Assembly: GCA_003221895.1 (NCBI GenBank)
Contig: QHUJ01000126.1
Coordinates: 1 to 34,659, forward strand
Reading direction: 5' to 3'
DNA length: 34,659 bases
Origin: Gemmatimonadota bacterium
GTDB lineage: Bacteria; Gemmatimonadota; Gemmatimonadetes; Gemmatimonadales; GWC2-71-9
Shown here: positions 1,317-34,659 of the stretch, in pieces
Numbering within the stretch: position 1 is the stretch's first letter
How the letters are laid out: each line of letters opens with the position of its first letter
Program-made: the position numbers and the translations under genes
Notes under the pieces: model-generated
Seen by the model: the letters and a program-made list of their open reading frames with translations, nothing else
Databases searched by the model: none
What the model was told of the DNA's origin: nothing

Positions 1317-2243
1317 CGCGCGAACGCTAGCGTCCTACTCGGTCTCGGGCTACTGGCTTGCGCCAGCGGGGGGGGGGGCGCGAGAGGCCACGGCGCGGCG
1401 CTCGGATGGAGCCTGGGCGGCGAAGCGCACGTCTTCGTCGCGGACGATCGCTTTGCCCGCGACTTCTACCGCGAGCTGACGGGCTCCGGTCGGCTGCAGG
1501 ATACCCTCGCAGAGCGTCCGCTCATCGCGGTGGAGCCGCGCGCCGTGCGCGGCGCGACGGTGCTTTCGGCCCGCGGCGCGGCGCCCGCGCGGCTCACGCT
1601 GGTCCGCTTCCACGCCGCGGAAGCATGTGGGGCCAGGGATCTCGTCACGGAGCTCGTGTTGGCGTTCCCGCCCGGCAGCGGAGCCGGACGCATTACGCCG
1701 CCGTCCCACGTTACGGTGGTCGCGCTGCTCGACGTGCCGCCCTTCACGAGCAGCGCGCGTCCTCAAGGCGCGTTGCTCTCCCGCGTGAACGCGCTCGAGC
1801 TTGTCCGGCAGGTCGCGCAGCGCGCCGAGACGCATGGGACGTTGCTCAGCTCGTTTACGCTGGACCCGGACAAGGCAGCGGACGCCGGCGAAGTCATCAC
1901 CGTGAGCAAGGGCCGATATGCGGTGGGATTTCGCGCCCGCTTTCTCGTCGGCGGAGACGACACGCTCCTCGTCACCGGTGTCGCACTCACCGACACCGGG
2001 GCCCGCGACCTCCGCTGGGTGATGCGGCCGGTACGTTCTCGACTCACGAATGGCATGATGTCATCAGGCAGCGGCGCGAGCCGTTATTCGCTCCGCGGCG
2101 CCGTGGCCGGCGAGGGTAGTGGAATGCTCCTCGTACTCGATGAGATCGCCGACGTTTCGCCGCGCGATTCCCGCGCCACCGCCGTCGATCCCGAGACCGG
2201 GCATGTCGTGGCCGCGCAGCCGCTCGCGCTCCGTTGCCCCTAA
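1311..2243 (+). CDS. Putative lipoprotein of unknown function
   Basis: The open frame extends further upstream, but that part is antisense to the reductase gene. The first start that gives a sensible protein is TTG 1311, producing 310 residues. The N-terminus is then a short basic stretch, a hydrophobic core and a lipobox-like LLAC (residues about 8-17: VLLGLGLLAC), so the mature protein would begin at that Cys and be lipid-anchored. The rest is rich in beta-type segments with no motif that I recognise. A tract of ten G residues at 1369-1378 encodes Gly just after the lipobox and could be a slippage site. It ends 15 bases before the cobalamin adenosyltransferase gene and may be co-transcribed with it. 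Function unknown; the start is inferred. Confidence 0.6.
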   Translation: MHRANASVLLGLGLLACASGGGGARGHGAALGWSLGGEAHVFVADDRFARDFYRELTGSGRLQDTLAERPLIAVEPRAVRGATVLSARGAAPARLTLVRFHAAEACGARDLVTELVLAFPPGSGAGRITPPSHVTVVALLDVPPFTSSARPQGALLSRVNALELVRQVAQRAETHGTLLSSFTLDPDKAADAGEVITVSKGRYAVGFRARFLVGGDDTLLVTGVALTDTGARDLRWVMRPVRSRLTNGMMSSGSGASRYSLRGAVAGEGSGMLLVLDEIADVSPRDSRATAVDPETGHVVAAQPLALRCP

Positions 2244-25631: not shown

Positions 25632-28600
25632 GTGAGCGAATTCGTTTTCGGTACCCACAACGCCGCGTTCGTACAGGTCATGTACGAGCAGTACCTCCGC
25701 GATCCGACGTCCGTCGGTCAGGAGTGGCGGGACCTGTTTGATAACGGAAAGCTGGCGGAGCTCCCGGTGATCCCCGTGCCACGGGAAACGGGCACTCCAA
25801 GCCCGCCCAAACCGGCTCAGTCACCCACGTCTCCCGTTTCCCGTGTCCCGCCTCCCGGTGCAGTTCCGATCACCGGCACCGCGGCTCGCCTCGTCGCCAA
25901 CATGACGGACTCGCTCACAGTCCCGACGGCGACCTCGTTCCGCGACATCAACGCGACAACACTCGATACGCGTCGCAAGGCGTTGAACGCGCAACTCGCG
26001 TCAAGCGGCCGCAAGATCTCGTTCACGCATCTGATCGGCTACGCCATCGTGCTGGCCGCGAAGCGCTTCACGGTGATGACGCACGTCTTCCAGGAAATCG
26101 ACGGAAAGCCACATCGCGTCGACCCCGGAGCGATCGGGCTGGGCCTGGCCGTCGATGTCGAGAAGAAAGACGGTAGCCGGGCACTCGTCGTCCCGGTGAT
26201 CAAACACGCCGAAGGAATGGATTTCGCCGCGTTCCACGCCGCGTACGAGACACTCGTCGAGAAGGCCAGGACAAACCGGCTGATGCCCGACGACTTCGCC
26301 GGCGGCACAATTCAGCTGACGAATCCCGGGACATTGGGCACCGTGGCATCTGTGCCGCGGCTCATGAAGGGCCAGGGCTCGATCATCGCGACCGGCACCA
26401 TCCGCGACATCGCGGGTGCGAAGATCATCACGATCACGAGCACGTACGACCATCGCATCATCCAGGGCGCCGAGTCCGGGATGTTTCTCCGCGCGCTCGA
26501 TTCCCTGTTGCAGGGAGAGGAACGGTTTTACGAGCAGGTTTCCGAGAGCTCGAGTGCGCCATCCGCGGCCCGTAGCGCGCCCGAACCCACCCCCCTTACT
26601 CCGCCATCCAGCGCGCCCACGCACGACGCACCACGCACCACGGACGATGCAGGCGCCGACGACTTCAAATACGTCGCCGCCGCCTACGCGCTCGTCCGTG
26701 CCCATCGGTACTTCGGTCATCTGGCGGCACGGCTCGATCCCCTCGGCAGCGAGCCGCCGGGCGATCCCTCGCTCGATATCGGTCGTCTCGGACTGACGCC
26801 CGAGATCATGGCGCGCATACCCGCCGACGTGCTGCGCATCTACGTGCCGGGCAAGACGCTGGCCGAGGCGCTCCCGAATCTGCGCGCCACCTACTGCGGC
26901 ACGATTGCATACGAGGTCGAGCACATCGGCAGTCACGAGGAACGTCTGTGGCTGCGGCAGGTGATCGAATCGGGCCAGCACCGCCGACCGCTCTCGGCTG
27001 ATGGGAAGCGGCAGCTGCTCGCCCGGCTGACCGCCGTCGAGACGCTCGAGCGTTTCCTGCACAAGGCGTATCTCGGGCAAAAGCGCTTCTCGATCGAAGG
27101 CCTCGACATGACGGTGCCGATGCTCGATTTCACGATCGAGCTCGCCGCGGTGCACGGCACGCGCAAGGCGGTCATCGGCATGGCCCACCGGGGACGGCTC
27201 AACGTCTTGGCGCACGTCGTCAACGTCCCGTATGAGACCATCCTCGCGGAGTTCGAGGGTGGGGGTCGCGAAGAAACCGCGGAATCCGAAGGTTGGAACG
27301 CCGGCACGGGCGACGTCAAATACCACCACGGCGCCGAAGGGGCATATCGCACGGCGGACGGCAAGGACGTCGCCGTCACGCTGTCACCCAATCCCAGCCA
27401 TCTCGAGTCGGTGAATCCGGTGGTCGAAGGGCGCGCGCGCGCCAACCAGACCATTCGTAACGGCGCCGTTATTCAGCACGACGTCAACGTGGCTCTCCCC
27501 GTGCTGCTCCACGGCGACGCCGCCTTCCCCGGCCAAGGGGTCGTGGCGGAGACATTCAACCTCGCGCGGCTTCGGGGATACACGACCGGCGGCACGATCC
27601 ACATCATCCTCAACAATCAGATCGGTTTCACCACAGACCCGCGCGAGGGGCGCTCCACCGACTACTCGAGCGATCTCGCGAAGGGCTTCGATGCGCCGAT
27701 CGTGCATGTAAACGCCGATGATCCCGAGGCGTGTCTCGCAGCCGTGCGGCTCGCGATGATGTATCGCGACAAATTCCACGGCGAGGTCGTTATCGACCTC
27801 GTGGGCTACCGGCGCTACGGGCACAATGAAGCCGACGAGCCCGCCTATACCCAGCCGACGATGTACGAGCGGATCAAGCAGACGCCGAGCGTGCGGCAGA
27901 AGTACGCGGAGCAGCTGGCTCGCGAAGGCGTCGTCGAGGCGGCGAAGGCGGAAGCGGACGCGCAGGCGGCCTACGATCGGTTGGCGGACGTGCAGCAGGC
28001 AGTGAAGTCGGGCCATCGCGAGGAGCCGCAGCGCATCACGAAGCAGAGCACGCCCGAGCCGAACACCGCTGTCGTGCCCGATCTACTGAAGAAGCTCAAC
28101 GACGAGCTCCTCGCCGTGCCCGCAGGCTTCACGGTGCATCCCAAACTGCTGAAGCAGCTCGAACGGCGGCGAGACGCGCTGACATCCTCGGAAGGCATCG
28201 AATGGGCGCACGCGGAAGCGCTTGCGTTTGCGTCGCTCGTGACCGAGGGGACGCCGATTCGGCTGACCGGACAGGACACCGAGCGCGGCACATTCAGCCA
28301 GCGCCATCTCGTGCTGCACGACATCAACACCGGCAAGCGGTATGCGCCGGTCCAGAACCTCCCCGACGGGCAAGCGACGTTCGAGCTGCACAACAGCCCG
28401 CTGTCCGAGTACGCCTGCCTCGGCTTCGAGTACGGCTACGCCGTGGAGGCCGACAGCGCGCTGGTGCTGTGGGAGGCGCAATTCGGCGACTTCGCCAACG
28501 GCGCCGAGGTGATCATCGACCAGTTTCTCATTGCGGGACTGGCCAAGTGGGGTGAGACCTCCCGACTGACACTCCTCTTGCCGCACGGGTACGAGGGTCA

Positions 28601-29225
28601 GGGCCCGGAGCACTCGAGTGCCCGGCTGGAGCGCTTCCTGGCGCTGGGCGCCGAGGGCAACATTCGCGTGGCGAACTGCACGACGCCGGCGCAGTACTTC
28701 CACCTGCTCCGCCGCCAGGCGCGCCACACCGAGATTCGTCCGCTCGTCGTGATGACCCCGAAGAGCCTGCTGCGGCTGCCGGCGGCGACGTCACAGCTCG
28801 ATGATCTCGTGCTCGGCAAGTTCAGAACGGTGCTGTGGGACAAGGTCCGGACCTGGCCGGAAAAGGTCACGCGCCTGCTGTTGTGCAGCGGCAAGATCTA
28901 TTACGACATCGCACAGTCCCCACGCCGCGCGCAGACACCGCACGTCGCGATCGGCCGTGTGGAGCTGCTCTATCCATTCCCCGGCTCGGAAATCGGCGAG
29001 TATGCGCGCCGCTACCCGAATCTCAAGGAAGTCGTGTGGGTGCAGGAGGAGCCGCGGAACATGGGCGCGCGCAAGTTCGTGCTTCCCAAGATTCGCGATG
29101 TCCTACCGCAATCGGTGGCGCTGCTGGATGTGTCGCGTCCCGAGCGCTCGAGTCCCGCCGAAGGGTATCCTGCGGCGCACAAGGCCGAACAGGAACGGAT
29201 TGTGAGCGCGGCCTACGGAGGGTGA
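25632..29225 (+). CDS. kgd: Multifunctional 2-oxoglutarate metabolism enzyme (KGD, E1-E2 fusion)
   Basis: A 1197-residue protein of the KGD type (mycobacterial KGD is of similar size). Residues 1-45 are the E1 N-terminal helix (SEFVFGTHNAAFVQVMYEQYL). After a Pro-rich linker (about 50-75) comes an acyltransferase E2 catalytic domain (about 75-300) ending with TYDHRIIQGAESG, whose active-site His is in DHRII (about 274). No lipoyl domain is present. A second Pro/Ala/Thr-rich linker (about 305-345) leads to the thiamine-diphosphate E1 part, with AHRGRLNVLAHV, GDAAFPGQG (about 628-636), NNQIGFTT and YGHNEADEPAYTQP (about 725-738). It converts 2-oxoglutarate in the TCA cycle. GTG 25632 is the start. 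Confidence 0.92.
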   Translation: MSEFVFGTHNAAFVQVMYEQYLRDPTSVGQEWRDLFDNGKLAELPVIPVPRETGTPSPPKPAQSPTSPVSRVPPPGAVPITGTAARLVANMTDSLTVPTATSFRDINATTLDTRRKALNAQLASSGRKISFTHLIGYAIVLAAKRFTVMTHVFQEIDGKPHRVDPGAIGLGLAVDVEKKDGSRALVVPVIKHAEGMDFAAFHAAYETLVEKARTNRLMPDDFAGGTIQLTNPGTLGTVASVPRLMKGQGSIIATGTIRDIAGAKIITITSTYDHRIIQGAESGMFLRALDSLLQGEERFYEQVSESSSAPSAARSAPEPTPLTPPSSAPTHDAPRTTDDAGADDFKYVAAAYALVRAHRYFGHLAARLDPLGSEPPGDPSLDIGRLGLTPEIMARIPADVLRIYVPGKTLAEALPNLRATYCGTIAYEVEHIGSHEERLWLRQVIESGQHRRPLSADGKRQLLARLTAVETLERFLHKAYLGQKRFSIEGLDMTVPMLDFTIELAAVHGTRKAVIGMAHRGRLNVLAHVVNVPYETILAEFEGGGREETAESEGWNAGTGDVKYHHGAEGAYRTADGKDVAVTLSPNPSHLESVNPVVEGRARANQTIRNGAVIQHDVNVALPVLLHGDAAFPGQGVVAETFNLARLRGYTTGGTIHIILNNQIGFTTDPREGRSTDYSSDLAKGFDAPIVHVNADDPEACLAAVRLAMMYRDKFHGEVVIDLVGYRRYGHNEADEPAYTQPTMYERIKQTPSVRQKYAEQLAREGVVEAAKAEADAQAAYDRLADVQQAVKSGHREEPQRITKQSTPEPNTAVVPDLLKKLNDELLAVPAGFTVHPKLLKQLERRRDALTSSEGIEWAHAEALAFASLVTEGTPIRLTGQDTERGTFSQRHLVLHDINTGKRYAPVQNLPDGQATFELHNSPLSEYACLGFEYGYAVEADSALVLWEAQFGDFANGAEVIIDQFLIAGLAKWGETSRLTLLLPHGYEGQGPEHSSARLERFLALGAEGNIRVANCTTPAQYFHLLRRQARHTEIRPLVVMTPKSLLRLPAATSQLDDLVLGKFRTVLWDKVRTWPEKVTRLLLCSGKIYYDIAQSPRRAQTPHVAIGRVELLYPFPGSEIGEYARRYPNLKEVVWVQEEPRNMGARKFVLPKIRDVLPQSVALLDVSRPERSSPAEGYPAAHKAEQERIVSAAYGG
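25780..25845. repeat. 13-bp perfect inverted repeat in the first KGD linker
   Basis: CACGGGAAACGGG at 25780-25792 is the exact reverse complement of CCCGTTTCCCGTG at 25833-25845. Both arms and the 40 bases between encode the Pro/Thr-rich linker between the E1 N-terminal helix and the E2 domain. The flanking text is made of variants of CCCGTN and resembles low-complexity intergenic DNA. Confidence 0.85.
26626..26639. repeat. Heptanucleotide duplication in the second KGD linker
   Basis: Two tandem copies of ACGCACC followed by a partial ACG occur in the part of kgd that encodes the Ala/Pro/Thr linker before the main E1 domain. Seven-base units shift the frame with each copy, so translated text differs (APTHDAPRTT) although the DNA is repetitive. 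Confidence 0.6.
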
Positions 29226-31831: not shown

Positions 31832-32213
31832 AATACCGCTCCCCCCTCCGTTCCAGTCGAGTGAGTTGCGCGTCGATATCCCGCATCGCCTGCCCGCCTG
31901 TCACATATCCCGCGTTCGCCGACCAGGTCGTCATCGGCGCCCAGCGGGCGGGTGGGTCGCGAGAAGGTCCTGACCTGGTGAACACGACCCCGATCACCGC
32001 GGCAGTAGCCAGAGCCGCTGCGGCCCAAACGATCGCCGAGCTGCGCCGGCGCGGCAGCGCTATACCCAGTGCGACCCGACCACTGTCGAGCCGTGCGAGC
32101 TGTTCCGCACACGCGCGGCAGGCAGCGAGATGCGACTCGATGTCCGTGGCTCGCTGCTCCGGAAGCTCGCCATACGCGAAAAGCAGCAGCTCGTCTTCTG
32201 TCGGATGTTTCAT
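31815..32213 (-). CDS. Anti-sigma factor with zinc-finger (ZAS) domain and one membrane helix
   Basis: A 132-residue protein. The N-terminal cytosolic part (about 1-45) has the HxxxCxxC motif ESHLAACRACAEQL of zinc-associated anti-sigma factors. A membrane helix follows (AIVWAAAALATAAVIGVVFT, about residues 60-79), then a periplasmic tail with DIDAQLTRLERRGERYY. By family it holds the ECF sigma factor inactive at the membrane until a signal arrives. It overlaps the sigma gene by ATGA, the usual co-translation of such pairs, and overlaps the next gene by 17 bases. Confidence 0.85.
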   Translation of the reverse strand: MKHPTEDELLLFAYGELPEQRATDIESHLAACRACAEQLARLDSGRVALGIALPRRRSSAIVWAAAALATAAVIGVVFTRSGPSRDPPARWAPMTTWSANAGYVTGGQAMRDIDAQLTRLERRGERYYGRPN

Positions 32214-32722
32214 CGGTAGTCCTCTAGAGCTTCGCCGATCTTGGCGATTGCGGCGCGCATCTGTGTGAGCACGGTGCCCAATGGACGGTGGAGTCGATCC
32301 GCGATGGCCTGGAACGTCAGCCCGCGCTCCTGACGCATCTCGACGACCTCGCGCTGCTCGCGTGGCAACGCGCTCACGGCACGGCGCACGGCCTCTCGCA
32401 GCTCCCGCTCCAGCAGCCGGGCATCGGTGGGCGGCACGGGCGGCGGCACCTCCGCCTGCAAATGAACCACCGCTCGGCGACGCACCAACTCCCGCCGTAG
32501 ATGATCGTGCCAGACATTGGCAGCGATCCGGAACAGGTACCCCCTGGCGTTGCCGTTCAACGAAACCCTCGGCGCCGCGGCGACTAGGCGCGCGGAGACC
32601 TCCTGCAGCAGCTCGGCAGCCAGTTCGTCGTCCCGGCAGCGCGCGCCCAAAAAGTTACGGAGCGCCGGCGCGTGTTCGGCGAGCAGCTCCTCGACAACGA
32701 CATTGCGGACTGGGGGCGACAT
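32210..32722 (-). CDS. ECF-family RNA polymerase sigma factor
   Basis: A 170-residue extracytoplasmic-function sigma factor with region 2 at about residues 20-80 (ELAAELLQEVSARLV, NARGYLFRIAANVWHDHLRR) and region 4 at about 110-165 (ALPREQREVVEMRQERGLTFQAIADRLHRPLGTVLTQMRAAIAKI). The recognition helix is in the last segment. It lacks regions 1 and 3, as expected. The next two genes encode its anti-sigma and an exported protein. A plausible self-promoter lies upstream, overlapping the riboswitch promoter region on the other strand. Confidence 0.9.
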   Translation of the reverse strand: MSPPVRNVVVEELLAEHAPALRNFLGARCRDDELAAELLQEVSARLVAAAPRVSLNGNARGYLFRIAANVWHDHLRRELVRRRAVVHLQAEVPPPVPPTDARLLERELREAVRRAVSALPREQREVVEMRQERGLTFQAIADRLHRPLGTVLTQMRAAIAKIGEALEDYR

Positions 32723-32733
32723 GGCTATCTAAG

Positions 32734-32763
32734 AGTACGTCTTGATCGACACATTATTTTACA
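32734..32763 (-). promoter_or_regulatory. Candidate ECF-type promoter upstream of the ECF sigma gene
   Basis: On the minus strand TGTAAA (32763-32758) and CGTACT (32739-32734) are 18 bases apart, resembling the -35 and -10 of ECF sigma promoters (the CGT in the -10 is typical). It would make the operon self-activating. The spacing is one or two bases longer than usual, so confidence is low. Confidence 0.3.
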
Positions 32764-32773
32764 AACAGGATTC

Positions 32774-32825
32774 GTGGCGATTTGCGGCATATTGCGGGCC
32801 ACGCTAAAGAACCCGCTAAAAAGCC
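32774..32825 (+). ncRNA. SAM-II-type S-adenosylmethionine riboswitch aptamer
   Basis: Stem P1 is CGTGGC (32774-32779) with GCCACG (32799-32804). Its loop opens GATTTG, as in SAM-II, and contains both 5' strands of a pseudoknot: GGC (32787-32789) pairs with GCC (32823-32825), and GCGG (32795-32798) pairs with CCGC (32814-32817). Between them ATATT faces TAAAA, the AU-rich binding pocket. The linker CTAAAGAA and the segment GCTAAAA are characteristic of the class. It lies ahead of a methionine-synthesis gene. A weak -10 (TATTTT, 32755-32760) would start transcription near 32767, just before P1. All pairings were read by eye; no covariance search was run. Confidence 0.85.
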
Positions 32826-32829
32826 TGGA

Positions 32830-32862
32830 CCCCCGCGGGCTTGTCGCTCGCCGGGGGTTTTT
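32830..32862 (+). terminator. Riboswitch-controlled intrinsic terminator
   Basis: An 11-base-pair stem (32830-32840 with 32846-32857, one bulged C and one G-U pair) with loop TTGTC is followed by five T residues (32858-32862). No plus-strand gene lies upstream, so it must terminate the leader of the following gene. CCCGC of the aptamer (32813-32817) can pair instead with GCGGG in the 5' arm (32835-32839), which would break the terminator. SAM binding should lock CCGC in the pseudoknot and allow termination. Confidence 0.85.
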
Positions 32863-32942
32863 CTCTAGAGACTGGGAGCTTGAAGCTTGAGGCCAATTCG
32901 CACCTTCGCCGTCTGCGCAACGTCTTTTGGAGCTAGAGTCCT

Positions 32943-34659
32943 GTGGCTGTGACCTTCCGCCAGCTGCTCGAGGATGGTCGCGTCCATGTGTTCGATGGCG
33001 CGATGGGCACGATGCTGTATTCCAAGGGCTTTTTCCTCAACGTCTGCTACGACGAGCTGAACCTCAAGCAGCCGCGGCTGGTGCAAGAGGTGCACGCGGA
33101 GTACGTACGCGCCGGCGCCGAGATTCTCGAGACCAACACCTTCGGCGCCAATCCGCTGAAGCTGAACAGCTACGGCCTCGCGGACGAGACGGAGAAGATC
33201 AACCGCACGGCTGCCGAGCTGGCGCGCGCCGCCGCCGGCGGCCGCGCGAGCGTCCTCGGCGCCATCGGGCCCCTCGGGATTCGCCTCGAGCCCTTCGGCC
33301 CAACGTCGAAAGCAGAAGCAGAGACGGCGTTCGCCAGGCAGGTGCAGGGCCTGCTCGCGGGCGGTGTCGACGGCTTCATCCTCGAGACGTTCAGCGACAT
33401 GGACGAGATCCACGCCGCGCTCCAGGCGGTGCGCGCCGCGTCCGATCTGCCTGTCGTCTGCCAGATGACCGTGGGGACGGACGGTCTCACATACTACGGC
33501 ACCGACCCGGAGACGTTCACCAAGCAGCTGACCGCGTGGGGCGCCGATGTCATCGGCGTGAACTGTTCCGTCGGTCCCGCCGGCGTGCTCGAGGCGGTCG
33601 AGAAGATCGTCAAGGCGACTGACCGGCCCATCTCCGCGCAGCCGAACGCCGGCCTGCCGAAAGACGTCGGGGATCGCAAGATCTATCTCGCCTCCCCCGA
33701 GTACATGGCGAGCTATGCGCGTCGCATGATCGAGGCGGGCGCGCGCTTCGTGGGCGGCTGCTGCGGCTCGACGCCCGAGCACATCAAGAAGATCCGCGAC
33801 TACGTCGCGAGCGTGGTGCCACGGCAGCCGAGCGTCGTCGTCTCGCGCGCACAGGTGCAGGCGCCCGCGGGCGTCGTGCCGGTGCCGATCGCCGAGCGGT
33901 CCCGTTGGGGCGCGAAACTCGCCCGTGGCGAGCTCGTCACGAGTGTCGAAATCGTGCCGCCCAAGGGCGTGGACCCGGCGTCGATGCTCGCGCAGAGCCG
34001 CGCGTTGAAAGCGGCCGGCGTCGATGCGGTCAACGTGCCCGACGGCCCCCGCGCGCAGAGTCGCATGGGCGTGCTGCCCTCGGCGATACTCATCGAGCGG
34101 GAGGTCGGCATCGAGACCGTCATTCACTACTGCTGCCGCGACCGCAACCTGCTCGGCATGCTCTCCGACATCATCGGCGCGCACGCCGCGGGGCTGCGCA
34201 ACATTCTCATCATCACGGGCGATCCGCCGAAGATGGGCCCGTATCCGGAAGCGACCGCGGTATTCGACATCGACTCGATCGGTCTCACGAATCTGGTGTA
34301 TCGCCTGAATCAGGGGCTCGATCCGGGCAACAATCCGCTCGGCGGCGCGACGCAATGGGTCATCGGCGTCGGCGTGAATCCCGGCGCCGGCGATCAGGAT
34401 CGCGAGCTGTCGCGCTTCGCGTGGAAGGTCGATGCGGGGGCGGAGTTTGCGGTCACGCAGCCGGTGTTCGACGCGGGCCAGCTCGAAACCTTCTTGAAGA
34501 AAGTCGAGCAGTTCAAGACGCCCATTGTGGCGGGCATCTGGCCGCTCATCTCGCTGCGCAACGCCGAGTTTCTCGCAAACGAAGTCCCCGGCGTTTCGGT
34601 GCCCGACGAAGTATTGGCGCGGATGCGGAAGGCGCAGGACAAGGGAAAGGAAGCGGCGC
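32943..34659 (+). CDS. Homocysteine S-methyltransferase / methylenetetrahydrofolate reductase fusion (3' end missing)
   Basis: The frame is open from GTG 32943 to the window edge (572 codons). The N-terminal homocysteine methyltransferase domain (about residues 1-285) starts VFDGAMGTMLYSKG, contains ETNTFGAN, IGVNCSVGPAGV with the first zinc-ligand Cys, and GGCCGSTPEHI (about 273-283) with the last two. The C-terminal methylenetetrahydrofolate reductase domain (about 320-572) has VEIVPPKGVDP, NILIITGDPP and FAVTQPVFD. Such fusions (YitJ-like) have no B12 domain within the part seen. GGAG at 32929-32932 gives a ribosome site 10 bases before the GTG; a second GTG is at 32949. The gene makes methionine precursors and is controlled by the SAM riboswitch. 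Confidence 0.92.
   Translation, partial: MAVTFRQLLEDGRVHVFDGAMGTMLYSKGFFLNVCYDELNLKQPRLVQEVHAEYVRAGAEILETNTFGANPLKLNSYGLADETEKINRTAAELARAAAGGRASVLGAIGPLGIRLEPFGPTSKAEAETAFARQVQGLLAGGVDGFILETFSDMDEIHAALQAVRAASDLPVVCQMTVGTDGLTYYGTDPETFTKQLTAWGADVIGVNCSVGPAGVLEAVEKIVKATDRPISAQPNAGLPKDVGDRKIYLASPEYMASYARRMIEAGARFVGGCCGSTPEHIKKIRDYVASVVPRQPSVVVSRAQVQAPAGVVPVPIAERSRWGAKLARGELVTSVEIVPPKGVDPASMLAQSRALKAAGVDAVNVPDGPRAQSRMGVLPSAILIEREVGIETVIHYCCRDRNLLGMLSDIIGAHAAGLRNILIITGDPPKMGPYPEATAVFDIDSIGLTNLVYRLNQGLDPGNNPLGGATQWVIGVGVNPGAGDQDRELSRFAWKVDAGAEFAVTQPVFDAGQLETFLKKVEQFKTPIVAGIWPLISLRNAEFLANEVPGVSVPDEVLARMRKAQDKGKEAA

Follow-up and report, generated by a model that had tools for sequence, protein, structure and literature searches.

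SAM-II riboswitches (RF00521, SAM_alpha, also called the metA element) have been placed in alphaproteobacteria, with scattered occurrences in other proteobacteria and Bacteroidetes (PMC1273637, PMC2258182). Marine metagenomes are also among the published sources. In Sinorhizobium meliloti, an intrinsic terminator stands close behind the metZ SAM-II aptamer, and SAM-dependent termination is predicted (PMC9373788). SAM-V resembles SAM-II in forming a comparable H-type pseudoknot that receives SAM in its major groove (PMC6061858).

The window analyzed here is a stretch of 34,659 nucleotides from the genome of a Gemmatimonadota soil bacterium. It carries an element with the same P1, L1, pseudoknot P2, pocket GCUAAA and methionine-gene context as RF00521, and the terminator arrangement is like that of S. 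meliloti metZ. It differs in its host, which belongs to Gemmatimonadota and not to the alphaproteobacteria, in a loop that falls three bases short of the Rfam consensus and in one G inserted before the P1 3' strand. Judged by its sequence, the element is a SAM-II riboswitch, ordinary in kind but widespread outside the proteobacteria. We put at about 85% the probability that it controls its gene by transcription attenuation, a reading suggested by an RF00521 score above the cut-off, the lack of a rival RNA family, a strong terminator and the methionine gene behind it.

The SAM-II aptamer and its gene

The RF00521 model matches the window at 44.5 bits against a curated cut-off of 36, with an E-value of 5e-7 in the whole window and 3e-9 when a 206-base stretch is searched. 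A search of all Rfam families against the short stretch returned no other SAM family at E<=10, SAM-V included. SAM-V and the other SAM families were rejected as the identity of the element on this ground, in line with the original prediction of SAM-II.

The P1 stem with the conserved L1 GAUUUG is present, as is the pocket strand GCUAAA (32815-32820; GCTAAA is invariant in a 42-sequence alignment). The P1 loop and the 3' strand form an H-type pseudoknot (P2) in which every pair is standard. In the original prediction, P2b (GGC 32786-32788 with GCC 32823-32825) was overlooked. The CCGC strand had been assigned to 32814-32817 and really lies one base further left, and a supposedly short pocket strand with four As was a miscount, as there are five.

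Table 1. Features of the riboswitch locus in window coordinates
Feature	Position	Strand	Basis or remark
Divergent ECF-type sigma factor	32210-32722	-	TIGR02937 over cut-off
Candidate -10 element TTATTTT	32754-32760	+	Also within promoter region of divergent sigma-factor gene
SAM-II aptamer per RF00521	32764-32839	+	44.5 bits; last 14 bases outside conserved core
P1 stem and loop	32773-32803	+	CGTGGC 32773-32778 / GCCACG 32798-32803; RF00521 alignment
L1 GATTTGC	32779-32785	+	Includes conserved L1 GAUUUG
P2b 5' strand GGC	32786-32788	+	Pairs with GCC 32823-32825; pairs checked
P2a 5' strand GCGG	32794-32797	+	Pairs with CCGC 32813-32816; pairs checked
CCCGC	32812-32816	+	P2a 3' strand (32813-32816) and originally predicted antiterminator strand
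L3 pocket strand TAAAAA	32817-32822	+	T and five As; sequence
AAGCCTG, preferred antiterminator strand (candidate)	32821-32827	+	Overlaps L3 and P2b 3' strand GCC 32823-32825
Intrinsic terminator	32828-32862	+	Core CCCCCG 32830-32835 / CGGGGG 32852-32857; U-tract 32858-32862
GCGGG in terminator 5' arm	32835-32839	+	
CGGGCTT in terminator 5' arm	32836-32842	+	
GGAG, likely Shine-Dalgarno	32929-32932	+	Sequence, putative; about 100 bases from aptamer
Bifunctional homocysteine S-methyltransferase/methylenetetrahydrofolate reductase	32943-34658	+	GTG start; cut by contig end

The pseudoknot was compared over 99 distinct relatives. The alignment model knew only P1, and the P2 pairs were placed by reading the alignment first, which makes this a check and not a blind test. 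Pairing in the P1 and P2 structure reaches 95.7%, whereas slid versions stay at or below 40%. Both sides change in 60 cells; shuffles give 23.6 +/- 5.5 and slid versions no more than 32. P1 is paired in 99.8% of cells with an invariant core and, because it hardly varies, says little about covariation. The P2b outer pair changes on both sides, from G-C to C-G, in 22 relatives. The third P2a pair, which lies across a bulge, also covaries (G-C in 35, A-U in 19, C-G in 18, and G-U) and agrees with the additional pair that Barrick and Breaker predicted to join the final base of the loop to a position downstream (PMC2258182). Covariation in homologous leaders, proposed at the outset as a check, is thus found as two-sided changes in P2.

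The downstream gene is an NF006396 equivalog (687.7 bits, cut-off 453), which confirms the expected methionine gene. Its start codon lies 118 bases 3' of P2b and 80 bases separate the terminator from the gene. The closest public relatives of the protein are 91-92% identical and come from Gemmatimonadetes soil assemblies. The divergent sigma-factor gene upstream of the riboswitch, which comes with a possible anti-sigma gene, served as the synteny anchor for comparison with relatives. A scan for sigma-70 consensus promoters found none on the riboswitch strand. By eye, TTATTTT is common to two riboswitch-bearing relatives (G266 and G022) and to the six species without the riboswitch leader described below, and is a candidate -10 element.

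The source genome encodes a second SAM-II before an aminotransferase-like gene (named by eye). Elsewhere in the window, positions 25632-29225 (+) encode a fused oxoglutarate dehydrogenase/decarboxylase with a succinyltransferase domain (NF008907). A phage origin was rejected, as there was no meaningful match.

The terminator and candidate antiterminators in the window

An intrinsic terminator stands between the aptamer and the gene, as had been anticipated. Its hairpin folds at -24.3 kcal/mol, far below shuffles (-14.5 +/- 2.6; 0/1000 as low). An automated terminator scan found nothing, which an inner bulge in the hairpin probably explains; folding shows the hairpin clearly.

We propose that bound SAM would hold P2a, P2b and the pocket strand in place, so that the terminator folds and transcription stops, making the element an OFF switch. 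Without SAM, the aptamer 3' strand (CGCUAAAAAGCC and its flanks) would be freed and could bind the terminator at its 5' arm and loop. The pairing in this state is most likely AAGCCUG with CGGGCUU, possibly together with CCCGC and GCGGG, and it may slow terminator folding enough to allow read-through. Neither antiterminator stem approaches the terminator in stability (-9.7 or -7.8 versus -24.3 kcal/mol), so that the effect would have to be kinetic.

The two stems were compared with dinucleotide shuffles of the terminator arm. AAGCCUG and CGGGCUU form seven pairs, including one G-U, and are equalled in 2.5% of shuffles (p 0.025). It is also how the 3' strand folds best with the terminator 5' arm alone, at -9.7 kcal/mol. 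On these sequence grounds it is the better antiterminator candidate.

The pairing of CCCGC with GCGGG as the antiterminator, as in the original prediction, appears doubtful. The complementarity exists: five Watson-Crick pairs, all G-C, give -7.8 kcal/mol and exclude both P2a and the terminator. However, 23% of shuffles equal it (p about 0.23), which is chance level in the window, and relatives of the same subtype center their pairing on GC(UAAAxx)GC, with a coverage of 0.98-1.0 at GC versus 0.2-0.5 at positions -4 to -2. CCCGC/GCGGG is therefore probably not the main pairing.

Candidate antiterminators among relatives

We extended the comparison to 161 related loci, in which terminator-like hairpins were called by our own criteria; a shuffled background was computed for the window alone. 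Such a hairpin lies downstream in 135 loci and starts no more than 25 bases from the pocket strand in 110 of the 161. The loci were sorted by a simple pattern into three loop types (A, B and C), and the window belongs to type A. Genes behind the aptamers encode homocysteine methyltransferase-type proteins in 86 of 159 cases (protein clusters named by eye). Others, also named by eye, encode threonine synthase, MetY-type sulfhydrylase, MetX, MetF, homoserine dehydrogenase, aspartokinase and MetK. Loci of cluster 1 (for example L023) carry SAM-II before panB-like genes (ketopantoate hydroxymethyltransferase, by eye), a folate-linked target that is unusual for SAM-II.

A pooled swap test of the terminator 5' arm and loop against the 3' strand was null (z -0.2). 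It turned informative only once subtypes were treated separately and a longer part of the hairpin was taken in, a choice made after the pooled null. Among the 50 type A loci, binding of the 3' strand scores -13.4 with the hairpin of the same locus compared with -11.9 for other type A hairpins, none of 2000 swaps was as good, and the pairing is centered on GC(UAAAxx)GC. The type C hairpin likewise pairs with this part of the 3' strand, which reaches -14.7 with its own type versus -10.3 with A and -8.8 with B hairpins; swaps within the type were no worse.

Type B behaves differently. Its 3' strand showed no preference for its own terminator over swapped ones (p about 1) and was dropped as the type B antiterminator after this test. 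The likely partner is the loop strand, in which GCCGCC appears to pair with GGCGGC of the terminator arm. The loop strand gives -14.4 with its own type versus -12.0 and -10.2 with the other types, and p 0.07 within the type. In the S. meliloti copy L247, the arm ACCGG looks complementary by eye to the loop strand CCGGT, as in type B; the type to which the window belongs pairs instead with the 3' pocket strand.

Where a hairpin carries a [C/T]NNTTT word, the word matches the two variable pocket bases of the same locus in 30 of 37 loci, against 13.5 +/- 2.3 when permuted. With near-duplicates collapsed, the match holds in 23 of 29 (11.7 +/- 1.8 permuted); relatives share descent and are not independent, so the permutation figures overstate the evidence. 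The window hairpin itself is without this word. A pocket-strand antiterminator unique to Gemmatimonadota was dropped as an idea, since a Rhizobium metA copy (L249) shows TCGCTA/TAGCGA by eye.

These comparisons bear on a rival reading, in which a plain terminator follows the aptamer with no dedicated antiterminator, and SAM acts through folding time, through stacking of P1/P2 beside the terminator, or not at all. In its favor, the antiterminator stems in the window are short and near chance, the pooled test was null and the S. meliloti metA terminator is not predicted to respond to SAM (PMC9373788). We nevertheless regard this reading as unlikely for the window, because terminator words follow changes of the pocket strand in type A and C relatives. 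Comparison across the family, rather than the window sequence alone, supports a terminator/antiterminator mechanism. It likewise sustains the general idea that a pseudoknot strand competes with the terminator, while the exact pairing first named stays at chance in the window.

We give even odds to a broader proposal. In many Gemmatimonadota SAM-II elements, the SAM-contacting strand GCUAAAxxGC may itself be the antiterminator, which would set ligand and terminator against each other for these bases, with the terminator word coevolving with the two variable pocket bases. Expression platforms would turn over fast, with terminator, ribosome-site and leader-lost versions of one gene inside the genus of the window. 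The hundreds of natural SAM-II variants come with a clear prediction of the antiterminator strand.

Leader variation in the genus and distribution across phyla

The homocysteine methyltransferase/methylenetetrahydrofolate reductase gene is present in all ten sampled species of the genus. The window (G000) and G266 have both aptamer and terminator. G022 and G267 carry the aptamer but no terminator, and P2b is followed immediately by a G-rich stretch. The remaining six (G002, G138, G195, G364, G395 and G396) have no leader; a shared TTATTATTTT stands five bases ahead of the start of the gene, which is possibly leaderless. The leader-lacking loci (L225-L228, L232 and L233) share the synteny of the window. 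The riboswitch is present in two outgroup loci whose proteins are 85% identical, which makes loss of the leader the simpler reading. A branch of a DNA tree separates the six species from the others, with support of 72/81 that is not decisive. The genus allows a direct comparison of riboswitch loss and platform change.

Translation control, with the ribosome binding site masked by the aptamer in the manner of the Sargasso Sea metX RNA, is probable for G022 and G267, where GGGG or GAGGG directly follows P2b and the terminator is missing. Direct occlusion is also the best studied SAM-II mode (PMC10907184). For the window it is very improbable, as the distant start codon has its own GGAG and the terminator lies between. 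Least probable of all is a chance or decayed sequence that no longer senses SAM: selection may be weak on a leader absent from six of ten species, but the invariant core bases, the 44.5-bit score and the intact terminator are all retained.

RF00521 matches 262 of 395 sampled Gemmatimonadota genomes, 221 of them over the cut-off; the 14 control genomes gave no match. Two thirds of the sampled genomes thus carry SAM-II, often two or three copies each, before methionine genes. Seven loci titled Acidobacteria or Pyrinomonas (L042, L045, L048, L050, L055, L067 and L074) score over the cut-off before the same kind of gene as in the window. In Acidobacteriota, the phylum of L048, 38 of 297 sampled genomes have a match, 26 of them over the cut-off.

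A literature search found no paper linking SAM-II with Gemmatimonadota; Rfam's own species list lay outside this comparison. Relative to the surveyed literature, Gemmatimonadota and Acidobacteriota thus appear to be new territory for SAM-II and not a new class. The suggestion that a non-proteobacterial host would extend the class holds in this sense: the host is indeed a member of Gemmatimonadota, within which the element is common.

SAM-I (RF00162) is over the cut-off in 61 of the 395 Gemmatimonadota genomes, mostly in other families of the phylum. A 2007 survey listed no species with both SAM-I and SAM-II (PMC2258182). Here, twelve genomes of one genus (g74) have both over their cut-offs. 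In the few of these that were read, the genes behind SAM-I are MetX-like or belong to the aspartate pathway, and the one behind SAM-II is MetH-like (named by eye).

Some SAM-II matches occur in pairs on the same strand, about 125-150 bases apart (G450:C64:9738-9950, G462:C128:9976-10173, G633:C91:42643-42858 and L201). These are possible tandems with weak scores, mostly under the cut-off. Locus L003 carries divergent SAM-II elements at 1511-1576 (-) and 1784-1848 (+), about 210 bases apart.
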